In this document: one piece after another, positions 31,612 to 52,917 of the stretch
How positions within the stretch are numbered: position 1 is the first letter of the stretch
Layout of the letters: every line of letters starts with the position of its first letter
Assembly (NCBI GenBank): GCA_023838465.1
Contig: JAIVEQ010000018.1
Span: forward strand, 1 to 64,000
Direction: 5' to 3'
DNA from: Candidatus Thiodiazotropha sp.
Lineage (GTDB): Bacteria; Pseudomonadota; Gammaproteobacteria; Chromatiales; Chromatiaceae
DNA: 64,000 nucleotides
The notes under the pieces: model-generated
Told to the model about the DNA's origin: nothing
The model's input: only the letters and a program-made list of their open reading frames with translations
Databases searched by the model: none
Translations under genes and position numbers: made by a program

Positions 31612-33304
31612 GTTCCAACTCCTCAGGAAAATAGCGTAAAACGCTTAGCATTGGGTTGGGCGCCGCCTGTCCCAGACCACAGATAGAGGCATCGATCATG
31701 ACGTTGGAGAGCTCCTCCATCAGTGCTTTGTCCCACTGATTCTGCTCCATCAGTGCAACTGCCTTCTCGGTACCGACCCGACAGGGGGTGCATTGGCCAC
31801 AGGACTCATGGGCGAAGAAGCGCATCGCATTCAGTGCCGCTTCCCGGGCGCTGTCATGCTGCGAAAGGACGATAATGGCGGCTGAGCCGATAAAACAGCC
31901 ATGGGGTTGCAGGGTATCAAAATCGAGTGGAATATCGGCCAGCGAGGCGGGCAGGATGCCCCCGGAGGCTCCTCCCGGGAAGTAGCCATAGAGTTCATGT
32001 CCCTTCGCCATGCCATCACAATATTCATCTATCAGTTCGCGCAGGGTAATACCGGCCGGTGCCAGATGAACACCGGGTTTGTTAACCCGGCCACTGACCG
32101 AGAAAGTACGTAGACCCTGATGCCCGTGGCGCCCCTGACCAGCAAACCAGTCGGCACCTTTTTCCAGCAGCTCCCTGACCCAATAGAGGGTCTCCATGTT
32201 ATGTTCCAAGGTGGGATGGCCAAACAGTCCGACCTGGGCGACATAGGGTGGTCGCTGGCGGGGCATGCCACGCTTACCCTCGATCGATTCAATCATTGCG
32301 GACTCTTCGCCACAGATGTAAGCACCGGCACCCCGACGCAGATGGATGGGAGGCAGGGGGTAGGGCGGGTCAGCCTGCAGACGTGTCAGCTCTTTTCTCA
32401 GCAGGGTCCGGATAGCGGCGTATTCATCACGCAGATAGATATAGATCCCGGCAATATCGACCACCCGTGCGGCGATCAGCATCCCTTCGATAAAACGGTG
32501 TGGGTCCTGTTCCAGGAGATGACGGTCCTTGAAGGTCCCTGGCTCACCTTCGTCGATATTGACCGCCATCAGGCGAGGGCTCGGCTGCTCCCGCAGGATG
32601 CGCCATTTACGGCCGGCTGGGAAACCAGCGCCTCCCAGGCCTCTGAGATTGGCGTCCTCGAGAAGTTGGATGACCTGCTCCACTGACATGTGTTGCGGAT
32701 CATCGGACCCCTGGGTATTGATTCGACCAAGAAGATCATAACCGCCATCGGCACGATAGGCGGTGTAATCCCGGTAAGCGGGCATCTCAGGCTGTATACT
32801 GTTGCTGTTGACGAGCTGCTGTACTTTTTCGGCAGTGGCAGCGGCAACCTGATTCTTTCCCACCACCGCCACCGGTGCCTCCTGGCAGTAGCCGACACAG
32901 GGTACCCGTTGCACACGTACGCCATCCCCCAATGTGGTCTGCAGGTTATTGATCAGCGCTTCGGCACCGGCCAGCGAACAGGATATCGAATCACAGACCC
33001 TAACGGTCAGTGGCGGTGGGGCTGTTTCACCCTCTTTCACCAGATCGAAATGGTGATAGAAACTGGCTACCTCGTAGACCTCGGTGGAGGAGAGATTCAA
33101 CTCTTGCGCAAGGGCAACCAGATGATCGGCAGAGATATGTCCCTGACTGTCCTGGATGCGATGTAAATGTTCAATCAGTAAATCAGCACGGCGTGGTGCG
33201 TTTCCCAGCAGGTCTTTCACCTGGTTCAGTGCGGCTTGATTCACAGCGCGGCCTTTGGGGCGACCGCGCCGTCTTCTGTGTTCGGATTTGGTTTTTGTAG
33301 ACAA
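31601..33304 (-). CDS. fdhB: NAD-linked formate dehydrogenase, beta subunit (NuoE-NuoF fusion)
   Basis: A 567-residue protein joining a NuoE-like thioredoxin-fold 2Fe-2S domain (residues about 20-165; CDSISC and PCVGYCQEAP hold the cysteines) to a NuoF-like FMN and NADH domain. The latter has GLRGLGGAGFPAGRKW, GAYICGEESAMIESIEGKRG and the 4Fe-4S motif ESCGQCTPCRVGTEKA. It transfers electrons from the alpha subunit to NAD+. The fusion is the same as in Fdh1B of Methylorubrum (about 572 residues). A TTG at 33304 is the likely start because no ATG occurs nearby in frame. It is preceded by the sigma-54 promoter at 33379-33396. Confidence 0.94.
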   Translation of the reverse strand: MSTKTKSEHRRRRGRPKGRAVNQAALNQVKDLLGNAPRRADLLIEHLHRIQDSQGHISADHLVALAQELNLSSTEVYEVASFYHHFDLVKEGETAPPPLTVRVCDSISCSLAGAEALINNLQTTLGDGVRVQRVPCVGYCQEAPVAVVGKNQVAAATAEKVQQLVNSNSIQPEMPAYRDYTAYRADGGYDLLGRINTQGSDDPQHMSVEQVIQLLEDANLRGLGGAGFPAGRKWRILREQPSPRLMAVNIDEGEPGTFKDRHLLEQDPHRFIEGMLIAARVVDIAGIYIYLRDEYAAIRTLLRKELTRLQADPPYPLPPIHLRRGAGAYICGEESAMIESIEGKRGMPRQRPPYVAQVGLFGHPTLEHNMETLYWVRELLEKGADWFAGQGRHGHQGLRTFSVSGRVNKPGVHLAPAGITLRELIDEYCDGMAKGHELYGYFPGGASGGILPASLADIPLDFDTLQPHGCFIGSAAIIVLSQHDSAREAALNAMRFFAHESCGQCTPCRVGTEKAVALMEQNQWDKALMEELSNVMIDASICGLGQAAPNPMLSVLRYFPEELEHGE

Positions 33305-33576: not shown

Positions 33577-34560
33577 ATGGACTCAGCTCTAATGACAAAA
33601 CATAGGCCACGGGGTGATTTGAACAGGTGGCATACTTTAAGACTTCAAACCCTTGTTGTGTTCATGTTGTTGTGTCTAGACACTGGCATACTCCAGGCAC
33701 AACCAAGCGGATTCATGGAAATCGCCCCTGGCATCTATCTGCGGCCAGGGATTCAGCAGAATTTTTCCTCACACAATCGAGGACACATCGCCAACATCGG
33801 TTTTATTGTGGGCAAACAGGCTGTTGCTGTGATTGATACCGGGAGTTCCTACCAAGAGGGGTTGGCCCTGCGCCAGGCGATCCGCGAAATCACAGCTCTA
33901 CCCATTGAATACGTGATTCTGACCCATATGCACCCGGACCATACCTTGGGTGCAGCCGCCTTTGACCAGGATAAACCGGTGTATATCGGCCATGCTCAGT
34001 TGAAGGATGCTTTGATCAGGCGGCAGACCTACTATCTGGATCGGCTCAAAGAGGTACTGGGCAGTACAGCGGAGGGAACCCGTCTGGCGCTGCCCTCAGC
34101 GGGTGTTGAGATCGACCAGGAGGTGAAGTTGGAGCTGGGCGACAGGATACTTGAGTTGCAGGCCTATCCAACGGCGCGTACCAACAATGACCTGAGTATC
34201 TACGACAGGAACAGCGGGACATTGTGGCTTTCTGATCTACTTTTTGTGGAACGGACACCCGTGGTGGACGGTAGCCTGTTGGGTTGGTTGAAGGTCATCG
34301 ATGATCTGGACCAACGCGAAGCGATACGTGTAGTACCAGGGCATGGGCCGGTGGTCAATGAATGGAAAGAGGCCCTGGCTGACCAACGACGCTATCTTGA
34401 AGCACTGCTGTCCGGTATCCGTAAGATCGTCAGAAAAAACGGAACCATAGAACAGGCGATAGAGCGCGTGGGCCAGGAAGAAAAGGATAACTGGCTGCTA
34501 TTCGATGAATACCATGGCAGGAATGTAACCGCCAGTTTTGTGGAATTGGAATGGGAGTAG
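33577..34560 (+). CDS. Quinoprotein relay zinc metallohydrolase (MBL fold)
   Basis: A 327-residue exported metallo-beta-lactamase-fold protein. The zinc motif THMHPDHTLGA lies near residue 113 and a late metal His in VVPGHGPVV near residue 258. An N-terminal hydrophobic segment (TLVVFMLLCLDTGILQAQ) is a probable signal peptide, so it acts in the periplasm. The protein fits the quinoprotein relay system zinc metallohydrolase families that recur with PQQ dehydrogenases and SoxYZ-like carriers. The real substrate is unknown. The start may be ATG 33577 or 33592. It is divergent from fdhB. Confidence 0.84.
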   Translation: MDSALMTKHRPRGDLNRWHTLRLQTLVVFMLLCLDTGILQAQPSGFMEIAPGIYLRPGIQQNFSSHNRGHIANIGFIVGKQAVAVIDTGSSYQEGLALRQAIREITALPIEYVILTHMHPDHTLGAAAFDQDKPVYIGHAQLKDALIRRQTYYLDRLKEVLGSTAEGTRLALPSAGVEIDQEVKLELGDRILELQAYPTARTNNDLSIYDRNSGTLWLSDLLFVERTPVVDGSLLGWLKVIDDLDQREAIRVVPGHGPVVNEWKEALADQRRYLEALLSGIRKIVRKNGTIEQAIERVGQEEKDNWLLFDEYHGRNVTASFVELEWE

Positions 34561-34733
34561 GCATAAATCCCACAGTGAATGGAGTGGTTTCAGGGTCTGA
34601 ACTGTTTCCGCTTTTTAACTTCCAATTTGGAGGGTATGTGAGTTCGGCAAGTCGTGGATAAGCCTGGGCCCAATCCCTAATTTCTAAACCAGCTTGGCCA
34701 GAGCCAATCTGTCTCATATGAGGATTAAGTGAA

Positions 34734-35582
34734 ATGACAACTGTTTCAAATTTGAAACACAATAAGCTGGTGCGAAAGGTCGTTCAGATTTCATTATCGA
34801 CATTTTTTTTATGCACTCTGATGATCACAACCTTATCCGCAGCAGAGACGGATGGACGCTGGCATGAGATCAAGACCTCTCTGTTCGGTGATCGGGCCAT
34901 ACAGAATGGTGAGGATGTGATCGGGCTGGAGACACCCTATCGCGCCCTGGATGCCGCAGTTGTACCGATCAGCATTGAGTCGAAGATTGCACAGTCCCAG
35001 GACAACTACATCAAGTCGCTCTACTTGGTGATTGATAACAACCCTTCGCCAATCGCTGCAATCTTTCATTTTCCTGGAAAGCATAATTGGCAGAGCCTGT
35101 CGACCCGGGTGCGTGTCAACGCCTATACCGATCTGCGTGTCATCGCTGAAATCAGTGATGGGAACATTTATATGGTGAACAACTATGTCAAGGCATCAGG
35201 GGGTTGTTCTGCACCTTCACTCAAGGATCCTGCCGCAGCGGCGGCGCATCTGGGGAAAATAAAGTTAAAGTTGCCGAAGGCATCCGGATTAGGCGACTTG
35301 CTGTCAACCCAGTTGTTGATCAAACATCCGAATAGTTCCGGACTGCAGTTCGATCAAATCTCCAGGCAGTATATCCCGGCAAACTTTATTCGCTCCATCC
35401 AGGTTACCTTTAATGATGAGGTTGTATTCACCGCAGACTCAGATATCTCCATCAGTGAAGATCCAAGCATTCATTTTGGATTCAGGCCTGAAGAAGAGGG
35501 TGTATTGAAAGTAGAGGTAAAGGACTCCACCGGTCGGACCTTCAATCACAGTGTTGATTTGCCCAACCAGGAGAAGGGCTGA
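34734..35582 (+). CDS. Quinoprotein-associated SoxYZ-like fusion carrier
   Basis: A 282-residue exported protein (signal peptide ending near TTLSAAETDGR). The N-terminal half resembles SoxY and the C-terminal half (IKHPNSSGLQFDQISRQYIPANFI onwards) resembles SoxZ. Between them is ASGGCSAPSLKDP, an internal version of the GGC swinging-arm motif of SoxY, so Cys near residue 160 could carry a covalently bound group. Such fusions recur with PQQ dehydrogenases. It follows the metallohydrolase gene after 174 bases. What is carried is unknown; a role in sulfur metabolism is not shown. Confidence 0.86.
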   Translation: MTTVSNLKHNKLVRKVVQISLSTFFLCTLMITTLSAAETDGRWHEIKTSLFGDRAIQNGEDVIGLETPYRALDAAVVPISIESKIAQSQDNYIKSLYLVIDNNPSPIAAIFHFPGKHNWQSLSTRVRVNAYTDLRVIAEISDGNIYMVNNYVKASGGCSAPSLKDPAAAAAHLGKIKLKLPKASGLGDLLSTQLLIKHPNSSGLQFDQISRQYIPANFIRSIQVTFNDEVVFTADSDISISEDPSIHFGFRPEEEGVLKVEVKDSTGRTFNHSVDLPNQEKG

Positions 35583-35598
35583 GAACATTGGGTATTCC

Positions 35599-35631
35599 AG
35601 TACGCCATCAATATCGCCTTGATGGCGTACT
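35599..35631. terminator. Bidirectional terminator between convergent genes
   Basis: A perfect 13-bp hairpin: AGTACGCCATCAA (35599-35611) pairs with TTGATGGCGTACT (35619-35631) with a 7-base loop. It lies 17 bases after the SoxYZ-like gene, and its right arm overlaps the stop codon of the convergent 124-residue gene. The T-run is weak on both sides. Confidence 0.65.
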
Positions 35632-36004
35632 AGAAGCAACGAAGTGTGGACTCAGCCTGCACTTCCCTTAACTTCGCCACTGCCGTTTTGGACCAGTTGG
35701 AATTCGTATAGATGGCATTCCGCCCGACCCCCGGCATCTGCTGAAGACGTAGTAGCGTCTCAATCTGTTCGTATTCATTGTAGGGGATGGATTTGGCGAT
35801 AAAATCGATACTGCAGGAGCATTTGTGCAGCATTTCCGAGGTCTGTCCATTTGACGCCATACAACCGATCACATAATCAACGATGACTGAGGTTGGATAG
35901 GCCCGTGTCTTTTCCTGATCCTTGCGGGATTCATCTGCAACGGCCAGGGTGCAGAAGAGCAGGCCGGTAGACAACAGGGGTGGAAAGTAGCTTCTGATAG
36001 ACAT
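35630..36004 (-). CDS. Exported hypothetical protein of the quinoprotein region
   Basis: A 124-residue protein, not recognised by family. An N-terminal hydrophobic stretch (YFPPLLSTGLLFCTLAVADES) is a probable signal peptide. The mature part has five cysteines, counting CMASNG and the close pair in HKCSCSIDFIAK, and a Cys near the end (TLRCF), which suggests disulfides in the periplasm. ATG at 36004 is preferred over 36019 because GATGAGG gives it a Shine-Dalgarno. It runs leftward after the 239-residue protein gene, 41 bases away. It may be a partner of the methanol oxidation system, judged only from position. Confidence 0.65.
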   Translation of the reverse strand: MSIRSYFPPLLSTGLLFCTLAVADESRKDQEKTRAYPTSVIVDYVIGCMASNGQTSEMLHKCSCSIDFIAKSIPYNEYEQIETLLRLQQMPGVGRNAIYTNSNWSKTAVAKLREVQAESTLRCF

Positions 36005-36045
36005 TGTAACTAACCTCATCGTGTTCTTGAAAACCGGATCATTCT

Positions 36046-36735
36046 TCAGCTCGCAGGTGTGAGTTTTTGGAATGTCATCGCTTCATCGATTGATGCACTT
36101 TTTCCATTTTCGTCCGGCACGACAGTATGGATACGATAGATGCCACCAGGGACCTGATCAGAGAATGTGATTTCGTAACGCTTATGGATATACATTTTGA
36201 GGTTGGTAACTGCATTCGGATCTGCGATGAAGGGTGTGACAACCACTTCGGTGCCATTTACCTCCTTTCCATCAAAGGTGATTTTAATATCACGTATCTC
36301 TGTGGGTTGTTTGAAGGAATCCCGAATTCGGTTTCTAAAATAGCTATTCGATCCACCACTATCTTTGCTCATACGGGAGATATCCCGCTCCATAAAATGG
36401 ATGATCACAGGATTACCGGTATAACCGACAGCAGGGGAGAAATCGATATGGTGAGGACCACTGAGGAAATCGAATTCCAGGTTTCGCTGACTTTCACCTA
36501 CTACATCTGTAACCGTCACTTTAATCTTGTCGGTGAAACTTTCCGCACCTTTTGTGACGCTTGAAAAATTGTAATTCAGACAGCTTCCCTTAAAGACACC
36601 CTGCAGGTGATCTTTAATAAACATCAGCTGCTGTGCTCTGTTGAGTTCAGCGGGAGGTGCTGCCTCCGCTGCGAATACAGATGCCATGATCAACAGTAGC
36701 GTCACAAGGGTGACGGCTTTATAGTGACGATACAT
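36046..36735 (-). CDS. Exported beta-rich hypothetical protein
   Basis: A 229-residue protein with signal peptide MYRHYKAVTLVTLLLIMASVFAA, cleavage probably after AEA. The mature part has many beta-strand-like segments (FTDKIKVTVTDVVGES, HIDFSPAVGYTGNPVIIHFMER) and a late segment IRDIKITFDGKEVNG, which is SoxZ-like in length and pattern but shows no clear family motif. One Cys lies in GSCLNYNF. ATG at 36735 has GAGGAGACC before it. The neighbours are all PQQ-associated periplasmic proteins. No family was assigned. Confidence 0.65.
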   Translation of the reverse strand: MYRHYKAVTLVTLLLIMASVFAAEAAPPAELNRAQQLMFIKDHLQGVFKGSCLNYNFSSVTKGAESFTDKIKVTVTDVVGESQRNLEFDFLSGPHHIDFSPAVGYTGNPVIIHFMERDISRMSKDSGGSNSYFRNRIRDSFKQPTEIRDIKITFDGKEVNGTEVVVTPFIADPNAVTNLKMYIHKRYEITFSDQVPGGIYRIHTVVPDENGKSASIDEAMTFQKLTPAS

Positions 36736-36903
36736 TGAATAAGGTCTCCTCAATTCTTCAAGCAACGAGATCTATAGTAACCCATGCAACGTAATGCAAA
36801 GAACGCATAGTCAAGGGATGATACGTACAGAAATCTCTGTATCCTTCAATATACAATAGCGATATTTGCGTTGTATTTTTCTACATTTCTGAATAGATAC
36901 TAG

Positions 36904-37179
36904 TCAGCTAAACAGATTGCGCAGCCACCCGAAAAACCCCTTTGCCTGGACCAGTGTGTGGGCTGTTACCTGGGCCGGTACCGGTTTGCGTGATAGATTG
37001 GCCATTCTTGATGTTGCTGTACGAGCCATTGAAGGATGATATTTCAAGCTGGTGATGTGGTGACGTCTCAGGACTGAGTCCGTAGGGGGTGTCTGCAGCC
37101 AGATCTGTCGCTTGAGTTCGTTGTCTGATTCAAAATGGCGTTTCAGTACAGAGTCTTCTGGAAAGGTTGAAATCGTCAT
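36904..37179 (-). CDS. Small basic hypothetical protein with internal repeat
   Basis: A 91-residue protein without a signal peptide. Two similar segments are visible, PEDSVLKRHFESDNELKRQIW and PPTDSVLRRHHITSLK, so a DSVL-basic-RH motif is present twice. The tail FFGWLRNLFS is amphipathic. A strong GAGGAGGAGA Shine-Dalgarno precedes the ATG at 37179, which supports a real gene. I do not recognise a function. It lies between the beta-rich protein and the YVTN protein. Confidence 0.65.
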   Translation of the reverse strand: MTISTFPEDSVLKRHFESDNELKRQIWLQTPPTDSVLRRHHITSLKYHPSMARTATSRMANLSRKPVPAQVTAHTLVQAKGFFGWLRNLFS

Positions 37180-37215
37180 GGATATCTCCTCCTCGGTATA
37201 TATTGTTATACAAAT

Positions 37216-38208
37216 CTAATGCCCCCCGGCTATAAAAACGCCGAATGCGCGGGGGCTCTCTCCGGTTGGAATACGATTGATAATTTCCAATTTTTCCGTG
37301 TCCAGAACAACCAGCTCGTTAGTGAACCAATTGGCGATATAGACACGTCCGTCTGTAGGGTCGACGATGATACCTTCTGGAAATTCACCTACTTTTATCC
37401 GGTGGATCTCCCGTAACTTATTTGCATCGATGACTGAAACTGAGTTGTCATGCTGATTGGTGACGAACACCCGTTGGCTGTCAGGTGTCACTGCAATACC
37501 GTAGGGTGTGCTGCCAACCGGTATGGTGGAGATGACTTTAAGTTTCTCCAGATCAATGACACTCAGGTCATTGCTTGCCACATTAGCCACGTAGAGGCGT
37601 TTTCCATTACTGTCCATACGGATACCAAACGGACGCTTGCCCACTTCGATGCGTTTTAGCACCTGGTTCAGGTGGGTATCAACAATGGAAATAGTGTTAT
37701 TGTCACGCTCTGCCACATAGAGCCATTCGCCATCCATGTCCACTTCAAGCCCAGAGGGCGAATCACCGACTGGTATCTTTGTCAGTATCGATAGGTCTTC
37801 CGGGTCGAGGACATACACCAGATCCTCATACCAGTCGGCTACGTAGACACGGCTCCCATCAGGATTTACAGCAATTCCAAGTGGACCCTGTCCGACCTGG
37901 CTGTGGGTAATCGTTTTGAGTTTAACCCCGTCTAAAAGATAGACTTCACGACTTTCCGGATTGGTCACGTAGATACGCTTACCGTTTTTGGAGACGGCGA
38001 CCCCAGCAGGCTTTGAGCCGACCTGTAAGGTTGCAGTCAGGCGTGATTCCACCAGATCGATCACAGAGACCGAATCATCACCCTGATTGGTTATAAAGGC
38101 ATATTGTGCTGCAGAGCCTGTGGTACTTATCAGCAGTGCAATCAGGACCAGTAACAACGCCACTCGTCGGGTTGAATGGTTGAGTTGTATCTGAATCTCT
38201 TTTTGCAT
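37216..38208 (-). CDS. YVTN-type beta-propeller protein (first copy)
   Basis: A 330-residue exported protein (signal sequence LLLVLIALLISTTGSAAQ). Repeats of the YVTN family, each about 42 residues, fill the chain: AFITNQGDDSVSVIDL, IYVTNPESREVYLLD, VYVADWYEDLVYVLD, LYVAERDNNTISIVD and further copies, giving about seven propeller blades. Such proteins accompany PQQ-dependent catabolism, perhaps as binding or assembly factors in the periplasm. It follows the MxaD-like gene after 16 bases. A second propeller gene of this kind lies at 40898. Confidence 0.85.
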   Translation of the reverse strand: MQKEIQIQLNHSTRRVALLLVLIALLISTTGSAAQYAFITNQGDDSVSVIDLVESRLTATLQVGSKPAGVAVSKNGKRIYVTNPESREVYLLDGVKLKTITHSQVGQGPLGIAVNPDGSRVYVADWYEDLVYVLDPEDLSILTKIPVGDSPSGLEVDMDGEWLYVAERDNNTISIVDTHLNQVLKRIEVGKRPFGIRMDSNGKRLYVANVASNDLSVIDLEKLKVISTIPVGSTPYGIAVTPDSQRVFVTNQHDNSVSVIDANKLREIHRIKVGEFPEGIIVDPTDGRVYIANWFTNELVVLDTEKLEIINRIPTGESPRAFGVFIAGGH

Positions 38209-38224
38209 GGTCTGGCCGGTTATT

Positions 38225-38758
38225 TTAGGAGCCCTGTTCCAGCAGTTTTTTCAGATTCGACAGACCGCTCTTGTAGACGCCGGTTACCGCATCGACAGCT
38301 GCTTGATCGCTGAGTTCCGGTGGGGGTTCGTTGTTCGGGAAACCGCGATAGAAGGCACCCTTCCAAGTGACAACACTCCCGCCATCTTCAGCTGGGGCTA
38401 TGTTGAACCAGGAGGAGTAGTTGGTGACTGGAAGGACCTTTACGTCAACCTTCTCTATGCGGTAGAAAAAAGAGTGTTTCTCGCTGTCGTATTTTTCCAG
38501 GATTTCATAGATCTTACCGTCATTAGGCAGCATCAGTATTCGTTTGGCACCACTACTGTTGCCACCATCCCCCTCCGTTTTAATGACAGCTGGATGCCAG
38601 CTCATGTCGTGAAAATCCTTGACCACATCCCATACTGCTTGAGGAGAAGCAGAAATCTGTTCCTTGACGATGACCTTCTGACGGGTAGGGCCATGGGCCT
38701 CAACCATCCCTGTATAGAATGAAATGATGGAGAAAAGGAGTGCGACTGTTTTTTTCAC
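38225..38758 (-). CDS. MxaD-like SRPBCC-fold periplasmic protein
   Basis: A 177-residue protein starting with a signal peptide (VKKTVALLFSIISFYTGMVEAH). The mature part is an SRPBCC/polyketide-cyclase fold (VIVKEQISASPQAVWDVVKDFHDMSWHPAV, then YKSGLSNLKKLLE at the end), the same fold and length as MxaD of methylotrophs, thought to aid electron transfer between methanol dehydrogenase and cytochrome. GTG at 38758 is chosen because GGAGG lies 5 bases before it; an in-frame ATG far upstream at 38872 would add 38 residues. It leads the YVTN gene in an operon. Confidence 0.84.
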   Translation of the reverse strand: MKKTVALLFSIISFYTGMVEAHGPTRQKVIVKEQISASPQAVWDVVKDFHDMSWHPAVIKTEGDGGNSSGAKRILMLPNDGKIYEILEKYDSEKHSFFYRIEKVDVKVLPVTNYSSWFNIAPAEDGGSVVTWKGAFYRGFPNNEPPPELSDQAAVDAVTGVYKSGLSNLKKLLEQGS

Positions 38759-39046
38759 GTAAACCTCCGTTGGTTTCCTTTCTGGTGTAGGCGGCTGTTT
38801 AAAATCGAATCCCGGGTAGGCCACATTATGAATGCTGTAACGCAATATCCATGCCTGATTAGCGATAACCATAGGTGTTGGTTGTTATATGAGAGATGGG
38901 GGAATCCACTGAAGAATAGCTTGTCACAGCAAACAAAGGGCAGCTGAGTAGAAAATGACATGATGAATGAAGGTTTGGATAATGCCTATCATGCACCATA
39001 CTTGCCTTTCATTGTCTGATCACTGAGACACATCGACCCAATAGAG

Positions 39047-39064
39047 CGTGTCAGTATTGACACG
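39047..39064. promoter_or_regulatory. Perfect dyad CGTGTCA-N4-TGACACG upstream of the PQQ ABC promoter
   Basis: CGTGTCAGTATTGACACG is a perfect inverted repeat in the 478-base gap between the MxaD-like gene and the rightward ABC operon, about 85 bases before the -24/-12 promoter at 39149. That distance is typical for an enhancer site of a sigma-54 activator. The TGTCA/TGACA half-sites recur in the dyad upstream of xoxF. Confidence 0.6.
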
Positions 39065-39147
39065 ATGTGGTTCAACGGTATCGATATGTGAGTTCGACAG
39101 TACGGCCATACTTTTGATTTTCTGATGCAGATGGCTTGTGATCAGTA

Positions 39148-39165
39148 GTGGTATAAAAATTGCCC
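39148..39165 (+). promoter_or_regulatory. Sigma-54 promoter for the PQQ ABC/beta-propeller genes
   Basis: GTGGTATAAAAATTGCCC has TGGTAT as a -24 element (consensus TGGCAC) and a perfect TTGC -12 element, with GG-N10-GC spacing. The predicted start is near 39175, giving a leader of about 60 bases before the substrate-binding protein gene at 39237. It resembles the mptG promoter, which also has TGGTATA. Confidence 0.75.
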
Positions 39166-39236
39166 AATCATTTATCGGGTACTCAAATTTGGCTTATCCT
39201 TAAGATTGTTAGCTGACGTTGCATGTGGGAGTTGTC

Positions 39237-40460
39237 TTGAAAAGATTGTCTTGGAATTCTAAAAAAAAGATAGATAGCATGTTTCCGTTCACTCTACTTG
39301 TCTTTCTCTTCGGACTACTTCTCCCCCCTGTCGCTATTGCAGCTGACATTGAGATATCGGTTGCATTGCTGGGATTGGAAGAGAAACGCCATATTCCACT
39401 CTCTTTACTTGAGCCGGTTATTGATGATAACGGCCTGGCAGGTGCAGAGCAGGGGATTCGTGACAACAATACCACCGGCCGCTTTACCGGCCAGTCCTAT
39501 AAACTCACCCAAGTAGTGGTAAAACCTGGAGAGTCATTGGAGAGTGCCTTTAAAGCACTGCATGCCCAGGGAATCAGTCTATTCTTACTCAATCTTCCTG
39601 CCGATCAGCAGCTCAAGTTAGCGGACTTGTCTGAAGCGCAACACAGTCTGTTATTCAATGTAGGGGCACCTGATGACAGCCTGAGGCAACACGCCTGTCG
39701 ACCGAATCTGCTGCACACCCTACCCAGTCGGGCCATGCTGGCGGATGCACTGGCGCAGTATCTGGCTTGGAAGCGTTGGCGCAAATGGTTTCTGGTGGTA
39801 GGCCGGCACCCACAGGATGAGGCCTATGCAGCGGCCCTAAAACGTGCCGCGAAACGGTTTGGCGGTAAGATTGTAGAACAGAAGAGATGGACCTTCGAGC
39901 CAGGCGCCAGGCGCACCGATTCCGGCCACACCAAGGCGCAGCAGGAGGTCAACGCATTTACCCAGACGGGGGACTACGATATTTTGTTGGTCGCCGATGA
40001 AATGGACGAGTTTGGTGAATACTTGGGCTATAGGACTTTCCACCCCCGACCGGTTGGGGGTACACAGGGGCTTTCACCTGCTGCCTGGAGCCGGGTACAT
40101 GAACAATGGGGCGCCACCCAGTTTCAGCGTCGGTTCCACAAAAAAACCGGGCGTTGGATGTCGGAGCGGGACTACGCAGCCTGGTTGGCTGTTCGCAGTA
40201 TTGGCGAGGCGGCTACCCGTACATCCACTTCTGACGCAGAAGAACTCCGTGCTTTCATCATGAGTCCGAAGTTCAAACTGGCAGCCTTTAAAGGGGGGCC
40301 GGTCTCATATCGTGAGTGGAATGGGCAGCTGCGTCAGCCACTGTTGGTTACTTCCCCAAGAGTGATGGTATCGGTCTCACCCCAGAAGGGATTTTTACAT
40401 CAGTTTTCCACCCTGGATACATTGGGATATGACCGTCTGGAAACGGACTGTTCGAACTAG
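39237..40460 (+). CDS. ABC substrate-binding protein of a PQQ-alcohol dehydrogenase system
   Basis: A 407-residue periplasmic binding protein of the branched-chain amino-acid type, matching the family tied to PQQ-dependent alcohol dehydrogenase systems. A signal segment (MFPFTLLVFLFGLLLPPVAIAAD) is followed by IEISVALLGLEEKRHIPLSLLEP. Later landmarks are VGAPDDSLRQHACRPNLLHTLPSRAMLADAL and a C-terminal SPRVMVSVSPQKGFLHQF. TTG at 39237 follows a GGGAG Shine-Dalgarno; an ATG at 39279 is the first ATG inside. The downstream beta-propeller, ATPase and permease genes belong to the same system, separated by a MITE-like insertion. Confidence 0.84.
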   Translation: MKRLSWNSKKKIDSMFPFTLLVFLFGLLLPPVAIAADIEISVALLGLEEKRHIPLSLLEPVIDDNGLAGAEQGIRDNNTTGRFTGQSYKLTQVVVKPGESLESAFKALHAQGISLFLLNLPADQQLKLADLSEAQHSLLFNVGAPDDSLRQHACRPNLLHTLPSRAMLADALAQYLAWKRWRKWFLVVGRHPQDEAYAAALKRAAKRFGGKIVEQKRWTFEPGARRTDSGHTKAQQEVNAFTQTGDYDILLVADEMDEFGEYLGYRTFHPRPVGGTQGLSPAAWSRVHEQWGATQFQRRFHKKTGRWMSERDYAAWLAVRSIGEAATRTSTSDAEELRAFIMSPKFKLAAFKGGPVSYREWNGQLRQPLLVTSPRVMVSVSPQKGFLHQFSTLDTLGYDRLETDCSN

Positions 40461-40607
40461 CGCCAGTCCAGTTACAGCAGTGCCCGTCATGACGTAATTG
40501 TAATGTAATAGCGTAATTCTAAAATGATGAGGTGACTCAAATAGATGACCGCCAGCCGTCGGCGGCCAGGCTGATACACCGAGTATCTGGATGGACACAA
40601 ACTTAAA

Positions 40608-40846
40608 CCTAGATTCCGCAGTTGATCGCTAATATCTGACGTAAGGTAATGATATGCGAAATGAAATAGTGCATTTTTCTCGCACCCATTGGGTGAGTTC
40701 TGAAATGCTACATGGATTTGTGAAAAATCCCAACGCATCCTGCGGTGTTGTCGTTCTTGTTAAGGAAACGGCCATTAACGGCGAACGACGCCTTGCCGGG
40801 CACGCCGGGATTTCCCACAAATCCATGTTCAACTGCGGATTCTAGG
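40608..40846. mobile_element. MITE-like element, copy 2 (239 bp)
   Basis: Same length and about 95% identical to the copy at 13633-13871, with inverted terminal repeats CCTAGATTCCGCAGTTGA (left) and, read inward, CCTAGAATCCGCAGTTGAA (right). The flanks are TTAAA and TTCAA, a possible degenerate target-site duplication. It lies between the ABC substrate-binding protein gene and the beta-propeller gene, splitting an operon that is usually contiguous. The element has no transposase gene. Confidence 0.85.
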
Positions 40847-40897
40847 TTCAATACGTCGGGATTGATCTTAATCCCTGAAAAAACCAGGAGTGGCACT

Positions 40898-41899
40898 ATG
40901 CGATTGTTTGATTCAACCTGCTACAGGCTTAGTCACGGTTCGGCGATAGGGCTGCTGCTGACAACCTTTCTGCTGGCCAGCCCCGGTCTGCAGGCCTATA
41001 CCATCTATGTGTCGAGTGAGAAGGACAATACCATCACCCTGGTTGACGGCGAAACCTACAAAATTCTGCAGAAGGTAGAAGTGGGGGAACGGCCAAGAGG
41101 CATTGCCCTCAGCAAGGATGGCAAGGTGTTGTATGTCTGTACCAGCGATGCCGATCACATCGAGGTGTTGGACTTGGAAACCTTGAAGGTCACCCATGTG
41201 CTGCCGTCCGGTCCTGATCCTGAACTGCTGGTGCTTGGACCGGAAGGGCGGTTTATCTACGTCGCCAATGAAGATGACAATATGGTGACTGTGGTCGATA
41301 CAGAAAAGCGGGAAAAGGTGAAAGAGATCCAGGTGGGTGTAGAGCCGGAAGGTATGGCCATCAGTACCGATGGAAAGTGGCTTGTGAATACCTCGGAAAC
41401 CACCAATATGGCCCACTTCATCAATCTGGAGACGCTGGAAGTTGAAGATAATGTACTGGTGGACCAGCGACCTCGTGTGGCTCAGTTCACGACTGATAAC
41501 AAACAGGTCTGGGTCTCCTCGGAGATTGGAGGCACAGTGAGTGTGATCGATGTGACAAGCCGGAAGATTATCAAGAAGATCGGCTTTGAGATTCCGGGTA
41601 TTCAAAAAGAGTCTATTCAACCTGTTGGTATCAAGCACAGCAAGGATGGCAAGCTTGCCTTTGTTGCCCTAGGGCCGGCCGCCAGGGTAGCGGTCATCGA
41701 AACCGGCAGTCTCGAGGTGGTGAAGTATCTACTGGTCGGACAACGGGTGTGGAATATGGATTTCTCACCAGATGAAAAACGCATCTTCACTACCAATGGA
41801 GTGAGTAATGATATGTCAGTGATCGATCGTGAGCGACTGAAGGTCAAAAAATCTGTTCAGGTTGGGCGTATGCCCTGGGGGATAGTGGTTCGTCCATGA
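40898..41899 (+). CDS. PQQ-catabolism-associated YVTN beta-propeller protein
   Basis: A 333-residue exported propeller protein with signal peptide ending near LLASPGLQAY. YVTN repeats are visible as TIYVSSEKDNTITLVD, LYVCTSDADHIEVLDL, IYVANEDDNMVTVVDT and a closing IFTTNGVSNDMSVIDR. The family is a fixed partner of the ABC genes of PQQ-dependent alcohol oxidation. ATG at 40898 has CAGGAG before it, though the frame stays open upstream into the MITE-like element. It overlaps the ATPase gene by 4 bases. Confidence 0.87.
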   Translation: MRLFDSTCYRLSHGSAIGLLLTTFLLASPGLQAYTIYVSSEKDNTITLVDGETYKILQKVEVGERPRGIALSKDGKVLYVCTSDADHIEVLDLETLKVTHVLPSGPDPELLVLGPEGRFIYVANEDDNMVTVVDTEKREKVKEIQVGVEPEGMAISTDGKWLVNTSETTNMAHFINLETLEVEDNVLVDQRPRVAQFTTDNKQVWVSSEIGGTVSVIDVTSRKIIKKIGFEIPGIQKESIQPVGIKHSKDGKLAFVALGPAARVAVIETGSLEVVKYLLVGQRVWNMDFSPDEKRIFTTNGVSNDMSVIDRERLKVKKSVQVGRMPWGIVVRP

Positions 41900-42633
41900 G
41901 TGCTGTCGCCCTTGATTTGACGGAAGTCAGTTTCTCCTATGCCAAGCGTCAAGTGCTGAAGGATGTCACCTTTACCTTGTCACCAGGTGAGTTCTGCGTG
42001 CTGTTAGGCATCAACGGAGCGGGGAAAACGACACTTTTTTCCCTGATTACACGGCTGTTTGTCTGCCGCGGTGGCGAGATCAGTATCTACGGACACAATC
42101 TTAGACAGCAGACGCTGAAAGCCCTTGGACAACTTGGTGTGGTGTTTCAGCAGCCGACCCTCGATCTCGATCTGAGCCTGTTGCAGAACCTCAGATACCA
42201 CTGCGCATTACAGGGACTGAATGCCCATGATTTGGAAAAGAGCATGCAAACAGCCCTCGAAGCGATCGGGCTTGGTGATCGTGCGAACGATAAAGTCAGA
42301 CAGTTGAGTGGTGGTCAACGGCGTCGGGTGGAACTGGTCAGGGCACTACTCCATCAGCCTCGCCTGCTGCTGGCTGATGAGCCCACGGTTGGACTCGATA
42401 TCCATAGTCGCCAGGCCATTCTGCAACAGGTTCGTGAACGCTGTAACCAGGATGGCATTGGGGTGCTGTGGGCCACCCATCTGGTGGATGAGGTGGAGCC
42501 TGATGACCGCCTGGTGATACTGCATGATGGCAAGGTGATGGCCCAGGGCAGTGCGGCCCAAATCATGGAAGAGTCGGGCACCGAGAGCGTAAAACAGGCG
42601 TTCAATCGGCTAACCAAGGGTGAAGAAGCATGA
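41896..42633 (+). CDS. ABC transporter ATP-binding protein, PQQ-alcohol dehydrogenase system
   Basis: A 245-residue ATPase with Walker A GINGAGKTT near residue 38, signature LSGGQRRRVELVRALLHQP near residue 137, Walker B LLLADEPT and the H-loop ATHL. It matches the ABC-2-type ATPase tied to PQQ-dependent alcohol dehydrogenase operons. It is coupled by 4-base overlaps (ATGA) to the beta-propeller gene before and the permease gene after. The transported compound is unknown. Confidence 0.92.
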   Translation: MSAVALDLTEVSFSYAKRQVLKDVTFTLSPGEFCVLLGINGAGKTTLFSLITRLFVCRGGEISIYGHNLRQQTLKALGQLGVVFQQPTLDLDLSLLQNLRYHCALQGLNAHDLEKSMQTALEAIGLGDRANDKVRQLSGGQRRRVELVRALLHQPRLLLADEPTVGLDIHSRQAILQQVRERCNQDGIGVLWATHLVDEVEPDDRLVILHDGKVMAQGSAAQIMEESGTESVKQAFNRLTKGEEA

Positions 42634-43433
42634 TGCCGCTTCAGTATCTTCGCTGTCTGATGGGCATCCTTGCCCGTGAGGCATTACGGTTTCTCCACCA
42701 GCGCGAGCGTTTCTTCGGTGCCCTGGTGCGCCCTCTGGTCTGGCTGTTCATATTTGCAGCAGGGTTTCGCTCGGTACTGGGTGTGTCAATCATCCCTCCC
42801 TATGAAACCTATATCCTCTACGAGGAGTATATCGTTCCTGGTCTGGCGGCGATGATACTGTTATTCAGCGGCATGCAGAGTTCACTCTCCATGGTCTATG
42901 ACCGGGAGATGGGCAGTATGCGCATGTTGATGGTCAGTCCGTTTCCCCGCTGGTATCTGCTGTTTTGCAAGTTGATCGCCGGCTCCCTGGTCTCGATCGC
43001 GCAGGTCTATCTGTTCCTGTTTATCGCCTGGTTTTGGGAGGTTGAGCCACCCATGGTCGGATACTTGTTGGTCTTTCCTGCCCTGCTGTTATCCGGTTTG
43101 ATGCTGGGCGCACTCGGTTTGCTGCTCTCCTCGGCGATCAAGCAGTTGGAAAACTTTGCCGGGGTAATGAACTTTGTGATCTTCCCGATGTTTTTTGCCT
43201 CGTCCGCCCTCTATCCTCTGTGGCGAATCAAGGATTCCAGTGCGCTGCTCTACGATATCTGCCGTTTCAATCCTTTTACCCATGCCGTGGAATTGATCAG
43301 ATTCTCACTGTATGGCGAGGTCAACTGGACGGCACTTTTCGCAGTCGTCGGCTGCTTGTTGCTGTTTATGGCAGGTGCCCTGTATGGCTATGACCCGGCG
43401 CGTGGTCTGATGACCCGCAAGCAGGGTGGATAA
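42630..43433 (+). CDS. ABC-2-type permease, PQQ-alcohol dehydrogenase system
   Basis: A 267-residue inner-membrane protein with about six hydrophobic helices, of the ABC-2 exporter type (YILYEEYIVPGLAAMILLFSGMQSSLSMVYDREMG is the family's cytoplasmic segment). It pairs with the ATPase gene overlapping its start, and the substrate-binding-like protein encoded upstream. Family members occur with PQQ-dependent alcohol dehydrogenases; export of a factor or import of an alcohol have both been discussed. ATG at 42630 or 42633 is possible. Confidence 0.9.
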   Translation: MMPLQYLRCLMGILAREALRFLHQRERFFGALVRPLVWLFIFAAGFRSVLGVSIIPPYETYILYEEYIVPGLAAMILLFSGMQSSLSMVYDREMGSMRMLMVSPFPRWYLLFCKLIAGSLVSIAQVYLFLFIAWFWEVEPPMVGYLLVFPALLLSGLMLGALGLLLSSAIKQLENFAGVMNFVIFPMFFASSALYPLWRIKDSSALLYDICRFNPFTHAVELIRFSLYGEVNWTALFAVVGCLLLFMAGALYGYDPARGLMTRKQGG

Positions 43434-43451
43434 ACTGGAGTGTCATTACCT

Positions 43452-44087
43452 ATGAATACAAAATCCGTCATGGCTTCAATCATACTCAGCATGAGTGTAG
43501 ATGCGGGGATGAATGCAGCCTATGCAGCGCCCCAGAAGGACCAAGTTCGTGATTGGCCCTGTGAGCAGATTTTTGTGCCGGAGGTTGCGGCTGCCGTGGT
43601 GTGGGCAGGTCCTCCTATTACGGGTTTGGATAATGAGTGGCAGCAGCACAAGGGTGTCAATGATCTGGTGCAACGGATTAGTGCAGCTGAAGCCGATGCT
43701 GACACTGTAGAGCGTGAGGTCGAAGCATTCGCCTCGCAACAGCAACCACAGGAGAAGGATCGCAATCTGACCCTGTTGTTTACAGGTGTATATGAGGTTT
43801 TGAATGGTCAGCGCGGGAAGATGCTCAATGGTATCAAACGTTATTCGCAGGGTCAGGCGGCTCGTGCAGAGAGACTGGGTGAGGAGTTGGATGAGATGAT
43901 CCGCTTGGAGAACGATAGCTCACAAGCTGCTCGAGACAAGCTTCGGATGATGCAGAAAGAGATGGAACTGAAGCAACGCATGTTCGATGAACGAGAGGCT
44001 TTTATCCAACATCTTTGCGAACGACCGGTAGTGGTCGAACAAAGACTGGGAATGGTGGCGCGTACGATCGCAGCCAATCTGGATTAA
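43452..44087 (+). CDS. Exported coiled-coil hypothetical protein of the PQQ ABC operon
   Basis: A 211-residue protein with a signal peptide (MASIILSMSVDAGMNAAYA-AP). The mature part has a DWPCEQIFVPEVAAAVVWAGPPI segment and then long helices rich in Glu, Gln and Arg (QAARAERLGEELDEMIRLEN), which suggest a coiled coil. A second Cys in QHLCERPVV could pair with the first. ATG at 43452 is preferred; GTG at 43440 would lie directly on the Shine-Dalgarno. It follows the permease after 18 bases and probably belongs to the same operon. No named family was recognised. Confidence 0.7.
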   Translation: MNTKSVMASIILSMSVDAGMNAAYAAPQKDQVRDWPCEQIFVPEVAAAVVWAGPPITGLDNEWQQHKGVNDLVQRISAAEADADTVEREVEAFASQQQPQEKDRNLTLLFTGVYEVLNGQRGKMLNGIKRYSQGQAARAERLGEELDEMIRLENDSSQAARDKLRMMQKEMELKQRMFDEREAFIQHLCERPVVVEQRLGMVARTIAANLD

Positions 44088-44213
44088 CCTGCATTTAGAA
44101 GAGCTAAATGACATTGTTTACTGAACTTAATACCATTAAAAAAAACTCCAGGGGTTGCGCTTAAGGCACGCGCCATTGAGCATAGCTGCTATACAGTATG
44201 AAAGTTGCCCTAT

Positions 44214-44774
44214 ATGATCGAACACGCTGTCCTTGAAACTTCACGTCTTCTGCTTCGCCCGCTTGCACTATCTGATACGTTGGCAATTCAGAAGACTGCT
44301 GGTGCCCGTGAGATCGCCGATACCATGATCTCACTTCCACATCCCTATCCCGCTGGAGGTGCCGAGCGGTACGTTGCCTTGCAGCAGGCTGAACGAGATA
44401 CTGGGCGCTCCGTCACCTTCACTATAAAGCAGAAGGCGGAAGAAGAATTCTGTGGCCTGGTTGAGGTACGCGATATCGACCGTACGCACTCACAAGGGGA
44501 GCTTAGTTTTTGGCTGGCTGTTGAAGCATGGGGACACGGTTACATGAGTGAAGTTGTCCAAGCCGTGGTGCAATACGGGTTTGAGAACCTCGACCTTAAT
44601 CGGCTCTATGCATACCATATGTTGCGAAACCCGGCTTCTGGGCGTGTCCTTGAGAAGAACGGCTTCAAGCAAGAAGGATTGCTGCGCCAGCGTGTGCGAA
44701 AATGGGGGCAATTTGAAGATGTGTTGCTGTGGGCCACCCTACGACAAGAATGGCAGGATGAGCTGGACAAGTAA
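44214..44774 (+). CDS. GNAT-family N-acetyltransferase (RimJ/RimL-like)
   Basis: A 186-residue acetyltransferase. The RimJ/RimL pattern is seen in LETSRLLLRPLALSDTLAI at the N-terminus, SFWLAVEAWGHGYMSEVVQAVVQYGFENL (acetyl-CoA binding), and NPASGRVLEKNGFKQEGLLRQRV near the end. It acetylates an amino group of a protein or small molecule, which is not identified. ATG at 44214 is the family start; a TTG at 44205 is possible. It has no visible link to methanol oxidation. Confidence 0.88.
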   Translation: MIEHAVLETSRLLLRPLALSDTLAIQKTAGAREIADTMISLPHPYPAGGAERYVALQQAERDTGRSVTFTIKQKAEEEFCGLVEVRDIDRTHSQGELSFWLAVEAWGHGYMSEVVQAVVQYGFENLDLNRLYAYHMLRNPASGRVLEKNGFKQEGLLRQRVRKWGQFEDVLLWATLRQEWQDELDK

Positions 44775-44848
44775 ATCTGTACACTGCGAAAAGGCCAATC
44801 AAGGGCTTTGTTCGAAATCTCAATCATGGTAGAGGACAAAAAGAATGC

Positions 44849-44881
44849 CCCATAAATACATATTCAACTGCGGATTCTAGG
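44849..44881. mobile_element. One-ended remnant of the MITE-like element
   Basis: The bases TATTCAACTGCGGATTCTAGG at the right side match the right end of the two complete elements, and the bases before it (CCCATAAATACA) still resemble them. No left end is nearby. It is a deleted copy or a single terminal repeat, between the GNAT gene and the rhodanese gene. Confidence 0.6.
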
Positions 44882-44962
44882 TTAAACGAGATAACCCTTA
44901 AAAAAACCTGATAGGTCGGCGACCCCACCTGTTCACCATCGTCAGTAAAGTATAAATACAAT

Positions 44963-45574
44963 TCATTTGACGTCCATCGGGACGGCCATACTCTTTTCCT
45001 GTGACAGCCCGGCAGCTTCCCACCCAGTCGTGCCGTCAGGGTACCAGTAGATTTGTGTATAACCGAAACAGGTTGCTGCACGTTTTGCTGCATTCCAGGA
45101 CATCCAACAGTCAGCCTGGCAATAGATGATGATCTTTCGTGACTTGTCACCTGCCGAATACTTCGCCAGGTTCACTTTGAAATACGCTTCAAGCTCATCT
45201 GATAGTGCGCCATAACCCACATTGGGCAGCCAGACTGAGCCTGGAATGTTGTGTCTTGCTGGTGGCAGCCATAACAGACCAGAGGGACGATCCTTGGGTT
45301 TTATCGGTGCAGGGAGGACATCGATCAGGATCACATCATCATCCTGCAGCAGCTTTTGCACTTGCTGTGTCGTCACTGTGAAACCAGAGGGTACGGTATC
45401 AGGTACTGGTGAGCGAAAGTCGGTGATTCGGTAGCCATTTGAAGAGAAGAGTTCTGTGTTCTCCTCGGCAGTAATGTATGTGGCGAATAGTATGAGTATG
45501 CATGTCAGTGTGACTCTACCCGCCAGTGATCGGTCAATATGAACGGAGCTGTACATGGGTGGTTGAGGATTCAA
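44963..45574 (-). CDS. Rhodanese-like protein, PQQ-catabolism-associated (CxxxCW type)
   Basis: A 203-residue exported protein (hydrophobic segment VTLTCILILFATYITAEE). The rhodanese-like fold carries IIIYCQADCWMSWNAAKRA near residue 150, the motif of the PQQ-associated CXXCW family, with two cysteines three residues apart before Trp. TGWEAAGL closes it. Its start overlaps the xoxJ-like stop by 4 bases, at TTG 45574; ATG at 45556 is an alternative. It is the last gene of the xoxF operon. The fold suggests transfer of sulfur or another group, but no substrate is known. Confidence 0.83.
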   Translation of the reverse strand: MNPQPPMYSSVHIDRSLAGRVTLTCILILFATYITAEENTELFSSNGYRITDFRSPVPDTVPSGFTVTTQQVQKLLQDDDVILIDVLPAPIKPKDRPSGLLWLPPARHNIPGSVWLPNVGYGALSDELEAYFKVNLAKYSAGDKSRKIIIYCQADCWMSWNAAKRAATCFGYTQIYWYPDGTTGWEAAGLSQEKSMAVPMDVK

Positions 45575-46425
45575 TGTCTTATCAGACTATCACTCTTGTC
45601 CAGAAGTGGGACGCCATATTTCACCAGGATCTCCTCTATCTGTGGGGCAAGCTTTTCCAGTTCTTCGTTGAGTTGGTGTTTCCATAAGGCCTCTCGACGA
45701 CGGATTCCCATGGAAACATTGAAGGCAAGCGGGATCGAATCCTCCTTGGGTGGTAGCGGTACGATGCTCAGTGCTGTTTTTTGTTGCCGGGAGACGTAAC
45801 CGGCGATCGGACCCCACACCACAGCTACGTCGATCTCTCCCTTTGCTACATCCTCTACCGCTTGGCTGGCTGGGGAGAAATGACGGGTATCGACAGTTCG
45901 CAGATAGGGACGCACTTGACCCATAAGATTAAATTTTGCAAGCAGTGTGGCAGGTGGTGTACCGGCAACAACGCCCAGTCGAAGCTGCCTCAGTGCCGGA
46001 TCTTTGAGCGAGTGAATAGCAAGTCCGGCATCCTGTCGATAGACCAGTGTATAGACAGATCGATAATAGGGGTTGGTGTTCTGTAGCAGTTCGTTGACTG
46101 AGGTAATACCCATCACCAGATCACAGAGACGGACCTGCAGTGTGTTGCGAACGAATCCGAGAGATTGGGGCCACCAGCGGTAACGTAGAGTACGATTGAG
46201 ATCTTTTGCAATCAGCTGGGCAATCTGGTTTTCAAAACCTTGCAACTGCTTATTGGAGTAGGGCAAGTGATTGGGATCGCCACAAACTGTCAGGAATTCG
46301 CTATTTCTGACTTCATGAGTGGTTGCCGCTGCTGATGCTCTTAAACCGATCAGCAGGATCAGGGTGATCAGAACAAAGAACAGCGCTATCGTTGTGATAG
46401 TGAAGCCTGATCCTCTACGCAACAT
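45571..46425 (-). CDS. xoxJ: XoxJ/MxaJ-like periplasmic binding protein
   Basis: A 284-residue exported protein (hydrophobic segment TTIALFFVLITLILLIGLRASAAA) of the solute-binding type seen with methanol dehydrogenases. SEFLTVCGDPNHLPYSNKQLQGFENQIAQLIAKDL begins the mature domain, and GVVAGTPPATLLAKFNLM and VWGPIAGYVSRQQ follow. In methylotrophs XoxJ is thought to help form or activate the dehydrogenase. It lies between the cytochrome gene (110 bases upstream) and the rhodanese gene. Confidence 0.88.
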   Translation of the reverse strand: MLRRGSGFTITTIALFFVLITLILLIGLRASAAATTHEVRNSEFLTVCGDPNHLPYSNKQLQGFENQIAQLIAKDLNRTLRYRWWPQSLGFVRNTLQVRLCDLVMGITSVNELLQNTNPYYRSVYTLVYRQDAGLAIHSLKDPALRQLRLGVVAGTPPATLLAKFNLMGQVRPYLRTVDTRHFSPASQAVEDVAKGEIDVAVVWGPIAGYVSRQQKTALSIVPLPPKEDSIPLAFNVSMGIRRREALWKHQLNEELEKLAPQIEEILVKYGVPLLDKSDSLIRH

Positions 46426-46534
46426 ATGATTGGGCCTTTGTAGCTTCTGGAATGGATAGCAAATTCGACCCGTTCTCCCACTCTTTTGTTCAAGCGCTCT
46501 TTATAGACAACGCTACAGATGGTTTATCCGCTGC

Positions 46535-46996: not shown

Positions 46997-47085
46997 GTAT
47001 CGCCTCTTCTAAGAGATGGGGGGCAGTGAACATCAGCGTGCTGTCACCCGCATCACTCATGCGGGTGACAGCGACAGATGGCAGA

Positions 47086-51239: not shown

Positions 51240-51240
51240 G

Positions 51241-52905: not shown

Positions 52906-52917
52906 AGGGCTACGCTC

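Follow-up and report, generated by a model that had tools for sequence, protein, structure and literature searches.

Quinoprotein relay genes beside XoxF in a clam symbiont: a SoxYZ-derived carrier, its zinc hydrolase and two unnamed secreted companions

XoxF, a lanthanide enzyme, is widespread in methanol oxidation, and there is debate over whether it releases formaldehyde or formate. The relay genes considered here, from the clam symbiont Candidatus Thiodiazotropha sp., are already known as named NCBI families of the quinoprotein relay system (QRS), and this type of locus was published in 2024 for Ca. Thiodiazotropha (PMC11237559). The original prediction presented them as an undeciphered relay. 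This is not a new system; it has a name in NCBIfam and is discussed in the same paper and in PMC12997753. The new part of this work is two unnamed secreted proteins, hypA and hypB, that almost always travel with the relay genes.

Three modules in the block next to XoxF

We analysed a window of 64,000 nucleotides containing a methanol-oxidising gene cluster. Family profile scores place every predicted gene, i.e., a zinc metallohydrolase, a SoxYZ fusion with an internal GGC, a CxxxCW protein, two propellers and ABC genes, within positions 33577-45574, and all but one propeller pass the NCBIfam curated cut-offs. These genes had been said to surround XoxF, but XoxF (47086-48903, minus strand) sits to the right of the block. 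It carries the lanthanide-type Asp (WDYDG), the extra Asp two residues past the catalytic Asp that marks a lanthanide methanol dehydrogenase, and a vicinal Cys pair (MCCD).

The block is made up of three modules. The first is the QRS core, with an exported SoxH-like MBL-fold protein, zinc metallohydrolase 2 (33577-34560, plus strand; TIGR04559, 380 against a cut-off of 280 bits), and the SoxYZ fusion carrier of type A, which has a signal peptide (34734-35582, plus; TIGR04557, 261 against 140 bits). The second comprises PedA1A2BC-type genes, four in order and each over its cut-off: a substrate-binding protein of PedA1 type (39219-40460, plus; TIGR03863), a beta-propeller of PedA2 type (40745-41899, plus; TIGR03866, 492 against 287), an ATPase of PedB type (41896-42633, plus; TIGR03864) and a permease of PedC type (42630-43433, plus; TIGR03861). 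The third is a minus-strand run of an exported SRPBCC protein that is probably MxaD-like (38225-38872; PF10604; for the MxaD family see PMC2577659), the other propeller, YVTN/YncE-like and under the TIGR03866 cut-off (37216-38208; 196 against 287), and the unannotated exported proteins hypB (36046-36765) and hypA (35630-36019, convergent with SoxYZ). The SRPBCC protein, hypA and hypB had gone unmentioned in the prediction, and belong to the set.

In P. putida, PedA1A2BC is a lanthanide importer, and its deletion raises the La3+ requirement about 100-fold (PMC6839425). The ABC genes of the window and the propeller at 40745-41899 are homologues, and by analogy would form a separate lanthanide-import module. 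That they belong instead to the relay and carry its cargo, as their adjoining position might suggest, is extremely improbable, given the effect of the P. putida deletion and the presence of PedA1 homologues in just 17 of 133 fusion loci.

The rhodanese-fold protein (44963-45574, minus; TIGR03865, 202 against 128) is the last gene of a run ordered XoxF-XoxG-XoxJ-CxxxCW. It shares four overlapping bases with the gene for an XoxJ-like periplasmic binding protein (45571-46425, minus; TIGR03871); in the XoxG position is a cytochrome c related to methanol metabolism (46535-46996, minus), whose best match, TIGR03874, is under cut-off (128 against 162). The protein has a PF00581 rhodanese domain (40 bits against 22) with the sequence CQADCW, but lacks the CxxxxR/K loop of the rhodanese active site; CxxDCW[ML]SWN is found in 15 of 16 homologues, and CxxNCWMSWN in one (L177). 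With 5 copies in 274 genomes it was rejected as a core component. The prediction that rhodanese, propellers and ABC system are parts of one relay is thus not supported. In a second locus of the same genome the CxxDCW protein is fused to a thioredoxin domain; a search for thioredoxin beside other fusions gave, with the seed used, only this genome's own fusion.

Carrier, hydrolase and secreted companions

The fusion carrier is derived from SoxYZ. Its GGC, residues 156-158 within GGCSAP, is internal, and the SoxZ domain begins at residue 181. The carrier cysteine (Cys158) is invariant in 48 of 48 fusions collected by profile with no motif used; a further 80 loci were excluded from this count because they had been found with a GGC-containing pattern. 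We rejected the fusion as a canonical SoxYZ carrier. It scores under the cut-offs of SoxY_true (61 against 125 bits) and SoxZ_true (72 against 76 bits), it lacks the free terminal GGCGG arm, and it does not regularly occur together with SoxXA.

Hydrolase 2 is confined to genomes with a type A carrier (25/27 compared with 0/247). Each of the seven metal-site residues is kept in at least 86 of 87 family members. The window hydrolase retains HMHPDH, D220 and H256, but the third-motif His, present in 86 of 87 homologues, is replaced by R201 (CGT for CAT, at 34177-34179). R201 is known from a single assembly, and could be an assembly error or a genuine loss.

Both hypA and hypB occur in 26 of 274 genomes and track XoxF nearly perfectly, hypA as a near-obligate companion of XoxF and hypB of the type A carrier. 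Neither has a family match in Pfam or NCBIfam. For hypA, which has four invariant cysteines (53, 67, 69 and 128), fold comparison gave no significant match, which is not proof of a new fold. The fold of hypB may be a LolA/RseB/YmcC-like half-barrel, as predicted from a Foldseek E value of 2.8e-5, but with a TM of 0.34, and VIA Z scores of 8.8 (3fzx) and 8.0 (LolA, 8cgm).

Association with dehydrogenases rather than Sox loading

We surveyed 274 genomes, 31 with the SoxYZ fusion and 243 without. Counting genomes as independent, with no phylogenetic correction, the genes of the set are associated far above chance. A PQQ dehydrogenase is present in 30/31 fusion genomes compared with 18/243 of the others. 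The lanthanide type, counted only from alignments with the full motif, occurs in 27/31 fusion genomes and in 7 of the 18 PQQ-dehydrogenase genomes lacking the fusion. Carrier type matches dehydrogenase clade (54:0 and 0:7), type B carriers going with another alcohol dehydrogenase clade, and pairwise-distance correlations, uncorrected for the species tree, indicate co-inheritance. The symbiont itself has two PQQ dehydrogenases, and one carrier for each. Two genomes have XoxF and no relay.

The association is independent of SoxXA. SoxA exceeds its cut-off in 12 fusion genomes and is absent from 19 of the 31; the loading oxidase is therefore not generally SoxXA. This bears on genuine sulfur oxidation, in which XoxF would oxidise thiosulfate onto SoxYZ with the hydrolase standing in for SoxB. 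An Advenella XoxF-like enzyme was reported to turn thiosulfate into tetrathionate (Pyne 2018, as cited in PMC6548844), but with so many fusion genomes devoid of SoxA, loci lying among H4MPT, formate and alcohol genes, and type B carriers following a different dehydrogenase, this is very unlikely.

The main rival to our preferred reading is protection from sulfur adducts, whereby sulfite, thiosulfate or persulfide on PQQ or the dehydrogenase would pass to the carrier, to be set free by the hydrolase as sulfate or sulfite, so that the dehydrogenase stays active in a sulfur-rich periplasm. It is put forward in PMC12997753 and PMC11237559, where thiosulfate is cited as inhibiting the use of methanol but not of formate in H. 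denitrificans; the SoxYZ ancestry of the carrier and a sulfur-oxidising host lineage with its own SoxA (on C97) are in keeping with it. Yet canonical Sox is not significantly more frequent with the fusion (12/31) than without (4/18; p=0.35), and YeeE-type sulfur transporters (PF04143) adjoin no fusion in the 31 genomes. The pmpAB/YeeE neighbourhood reported beside the fusion of H. denitrificans thus does not hold generally, and a link to sulfur transport was rejected. We regard adduct protection as possible but on balance doubtful. If true, it would explain how methylotrophs shield PQQ enzymes from sulfur.

The vicinal Cys-Cys pair was rejected as a discriminating dehydrogenase feature, being found both with the relay and in all 18 PQQ-dehydrogenase genomes without it. 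That distribution also speaks against a maturation service, in which SoxYZ, CxxDCW and hypA would form or repair this disulfide, or help insertion of PQQ or metal. Several secreted proteins with invariant cysteines lie around XoxF, one CxxDCW protein is a thioredoxin fusion, and PMC12997753 proposes such a role. Nevertheless, a published screen for XoxF1 function in Methylorubrum extorquens AM1 lists xoxG, xoxJ, pqq and lut along with an MxaD homologue, but not the relay genes META1p1703-1705 (homologues of soxYZ, soxH and the rhodanese), and the hydrolase is left unexplained, so that maturation is quite improbable.

A candidate mechanism and comparison with known systems

The unchanging carrier cysteine, the near-perfect co-occurrence of hydrolase with carrier, and a link that runs to the dehydrogenase and not to Sox loading support one part of the predicted covalent-carrier pathway: a Cys carrier with a hydrolase, tied to PQQ alcohol oxidation. 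For the rhodanese, propellers and ABC system as further parts we found no such support. The set probably acts on a product of the alcohol dehydrogenase or on something attached to that enzyme. We infer what the cargo is, how it is loaded and unloaded, and a reductant role for CxxDCW.

Our preferred reading, with a probability of about 0.38, is a putative periplasmic, dehydrogenase-specific aldehyde-thioester relay, with the SoxYZ fusion and zinc hydrolase as its core. The aldehyde formed by the PQQ dehydrogenase would be caught on Cys158 as a hemithioacetal, which the quinoprotein or its cytochrome would oxidise to a thioester. The glyoxalase-II-like hydrolase would then free the carrier thiol and the acid, formate for XoxF and longer acids for the other clade, and CxxDCW proteins, including the thioredoxin fusion of the second locus, may keep the carrier thiol reduced. 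Such a side route would hold down periplasmic aldehyde. Counted in favour are the invariant cysteine, hydrolase-carrier pairing, the conserved metal site of the hydrolase family, the need for a PQQ dehydrogenase, mostly of lanthanide type, clade matching, the limited occurrence of SoxA, one carrier per dehydrogenase in the symbiont and the CxxDCW-thioredoxin fusion. Counted against it are R201, the two relay-free XoxF genomes, formaldehyde rather than formate as the in vivo product of M. extorquens XoxF1 (PMC6414531), minimal RB-TnSeq phenotypes in P. putida without lanthanide (PMC12997753), and markers of cytoplasmic formaldehyde oxidation in every fusion genome. Fae is present in 25/31 and full-length GSH-FDH in five of the remaining six; the sixth (G060) has a GSH-FDH fragment and a below-cut-off match only. 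The relay as sole route from formaldehyde to formate was accordingly rejected.

A carrier and hydrolase that jointly track the dehydrogenase across its clades offer a direct handle on the formaldehyde/formate question, and the hypA and hypB families are immediate knockout targets. It is rather unlikely that the locus holds both a new covalent-carrier chemistry, with a periplasmic protein-thioester formed as a quinoprotein oxidises aldehyde on a SoxYZ-type cysteine, and, in hypA and hypB, undescribed dedicated partners of XoxF.

Among known systems, the window carrier and hydrolase 2 exceed the curated cut-offs of the QRS families (TIGR04557/04558/04559) and share their PQQ-dehydrogenase linkage; R201 in place of a near-invariant His, and hypA and hypB, in no NCBIfam family, set the window apart. 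In the SoxYZ-S4/SoxYZ-S2 loci of Ca. Thiodiazotropha, as described in passages of PMC11237559, a SoxYZ fusion is likewise accompanied by soxH, xoxF and formate dehydrogenase, and a further copy goes with a different PQQ alcohol dehydrogenase, as here; those passages give no special mention to hypA, hypB or the CxxDCW-thioredoxin fusion. The ped cluster of P. putida (PP_2666, PP_2677, PP_2678, PedA1A2BC) likewise has a rhodanese-like protein, SoxYZ-like carrier, SoxH-like hydrolase and lanthanide ABC importer, but adjoins lanthanide-dependent PedH, not XoxF. With Sox thiosulfate oxidation (SoxYZ, SoxXA, SoxB) the relay shares the carrier fold, the conserved cysteine and the logic of oxidase, carrier and hydrolase. 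Unlike Sox, it has fused subunits, an arm tethered at both ends with GGCSAP in place of terminal GGCGG, an MBL hydrolase where Sox has SoxB, and no requirement for SoxXA.

Gene content and layout of the block

We have examined the genes next to XoxF, where the original prediction placed a zinc metallohydrolase, a SoxYZ carrier, a rhodanese-like protein, propellers and an ABC system. All the named genes are present in the interval, and NCBIfam family names were assigned to them. By strand and gene order the block divides into modules. The first, on the plus strand, comprises the quinoprotein relay system Zn metallohydrolase 2 (33577-34560) and the quinoprotein dehydrogenase-associated SoxYZ-like carrier (34734-35582), a fusion of SoxY and SoxZ. 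Convergent with SoxYZ is a minus-strand module of an SRPBCC protein (38225-38872), a YncE-like propeller (37216-38208) and two unannotated exported proteins, hypB (36046-36765) and hypA (35630-36019). A third module, on the plus strand (39219-43433), contains PedA1A2BC-type genes, which NCBIfam assigns to PQQ alcohol dehydrogenase systems: an ABC substrate-binding protein, a propeller, an ATPase and a permease. It is followed by a minus-strand run of XoxF, cytochrome and XoxJ (45571-48903) and the PQQ-associated CXXCW motif protein (44963-45574; CxxDCW protein below).

Formate dehydrogenase (28867-33304) lies to the left of the block. On the right is the H4MPT formaldehyde pathway. Subunits of formylmethanofuran dehydrogenase are encoded there along with Fae and H4MPT biosynthesis (49534-61059), and thus formaldehyde oxidation is encoded beside XoxF.

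The carrier is 94% identical in the nearest named genomes, those of Ca. Thiodiazotropha, sulfur-oxidizing clam symbionts. Similar gene orders are found in Azoarcus, Ruegeria and Sagittula, and partially in Azospirillum. In Azoarcus KH32C an extra MBL-fold hydrolase (locus L119, 15745-16698) immediately follows hydrolase 2 and SoxYZ, and 23 ORFs across the loci are weaker hydrolase matches left unassigned. An exported 215-aa protein without a family match (43440-44087) has related ORFs in eight examined loci, including Ruegeria. The 91-aa ORF between the propeller and hypB (36904-37179) was found in five loci only, and may not be a gene.

Pairing of carrier, hydrolase and dehydrogenase

The distribution of these genes was analyzed in 274 genomes of the same class, counting true open SoxYZ fusions over the cut-off and leaving out canonical soxY-soxZ pairs with an intervening stop. 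Fusions are present in 31 genomes, 30 of which encode a PQQ methanol/ethanol-type dehydrogenase, compared with 18 of the 243 others; the single exception is 64% complete. SoxA is missing from 19/31 fusion genomes. The sole conserved carrier cysteine is invariant in all 48 profile-collected fusions, and the hydrolase family retains its HxHxDH, His, Asp, His set.

The fusions are of two types, A (27 genomes; the window carrier is of this type) and B (nine genomes), with both in some genomes. Hydrolase 2 goes with type A (25/27 type A genomes versus 0/247 others), while hydrolase 1 is the partner of type B. At loci with both genes, type A carriers adjoin XoxF-like or related dehydrogenases, all outside the PCC-motif clade (54/54), and type B carriers adjoin members of that clade (7/7). 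The genome under study has two PQQ dehydrogenases, in the window and on contig C13, with one carrier-hydrolase pair for each. The CxxDCW family is rare, with five copies over the cut-off in the 274 genomes, four adjoining type B carriers. On C13 (locus L058, 17103-18146), next to the second SoxYZ-hydrolase pair, the CxxDCW protein carries a fused thioredoxin-like domain with the motif CPFC.

A lanthanide-type D[FYW]DG dehydrogenase occurs in 27/31 fusion genomes, but in only 7/18 fusion-free genomes with a PQQ dehydrogenase (p = 9e-4). Three of the four fusion genomes lacking it are <80% complete, and the fourth has its XoxF truncated at the edge of a contig. Fusion and lanthanide are strongly but not absolutely linked: one type B carrier (locus L072) adjoins a Ca-type enzyme. 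A vicinal Cys pair was rejected as a discriminating dehydrogenase feature, since all 18 fusion-free genomes carry it.

The window hydrolase has Arg at position 201 (CGT, 34177-34179), where 86/87 homologues have His, among them the two closest relatives, in which it is encoded by CAT. Either this copy would be impaired or the change is an assembly error.

Two unannotated exported proteins

Neither hypA nor hypB gave a significant match to Pfam, NCBIfam or PDB sequences. HypA has four cysteines invariant in 69 homologues, and its AlphaFold2 model is a helical bundle (pLDDT 88) with no significant match among PDB structures. HypB is without conserved cysteines; its model (pLDDT 93) suggests a LolA/RseB/YmcC-like fold (Z up to 8.8, with low TM).

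Each is present in 26/274 genomes. HypB occurs in 25/27 type A genomes and in G174; hypA occurs in 24/27, the three without it being 64-78% complete, and in two genomes that encode XoxF without a fusion, G028 and G174. HypA is therefore a companion of XoxF even where the relay, i.e., carrier and hydrolase, is absent.

Possible function and relation to known systems

We infer that the PQQ dehydrogenase or its cytochrome would load the carrier, because this dehydrogenase is the one oxidase nearly always present in fusion genomes. The simplest cargo would be its aldehyde product, which could form a thioester cleavable by the MBL hydrolase. A cytoplasmic formaldehyde oxidation marker is found in every fusion genome, except for fragmentary evidence only in G060, and this counts against the relay as the main route. 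When M. extorquens was screened for mutants no longer accumulating formaldehyde made by XoxF, META1p1703-1705, identified as relay homologues in PMC12997753, were not among the genes with at least 4 hits. As an argument from absence, this disfavors a strict maturation role and is consistent with a relay acting to clear aldehyde or sulfur adducts. Clearance of sulfur adducts, protecting against sulfur, ranks close behind the aldehyde thioester as an explanation.

The quinoprotein relay families had already been named by NCBI. PMC11237559 (2024) describes these SoxYZ fusions in Thiodiazotropha, together with xoxF and formate dehydrogenase, and doubts a sulfur role; hypotheses on the relay are reviewed in PMC12997753 (2026). 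To our knowledge, several points are new relative to the open-licence literature: the pairing tests across genomes, the recognition of the importer genes as a separate module, the match of carrier type to dehydrogenase clade, the finding that the Cys pair does not discriminate, the two unannotated families linked to XoxF and the R201 change.

Growth of P. putida at low La3+ needs PedA1A2BC, read as a lanthanide importer (PMC6839425), and the PedA1A2BC-type genes would therefore form a module for metal supply. A Polyketide_cyc2 domain places the SRPBCC protein in the same Bet v 1/polyketide-cyclase group as MxaD, which stimulates the interaction of methanol dehydrogenase with its cytochrome (PMC2577659). 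In M. extorquens, growth that depends on XoxF1 draws in part on an MxaD homologue (PMC7391723). The SRPBCC protein of the window may be the functional equivalent of MxaD.
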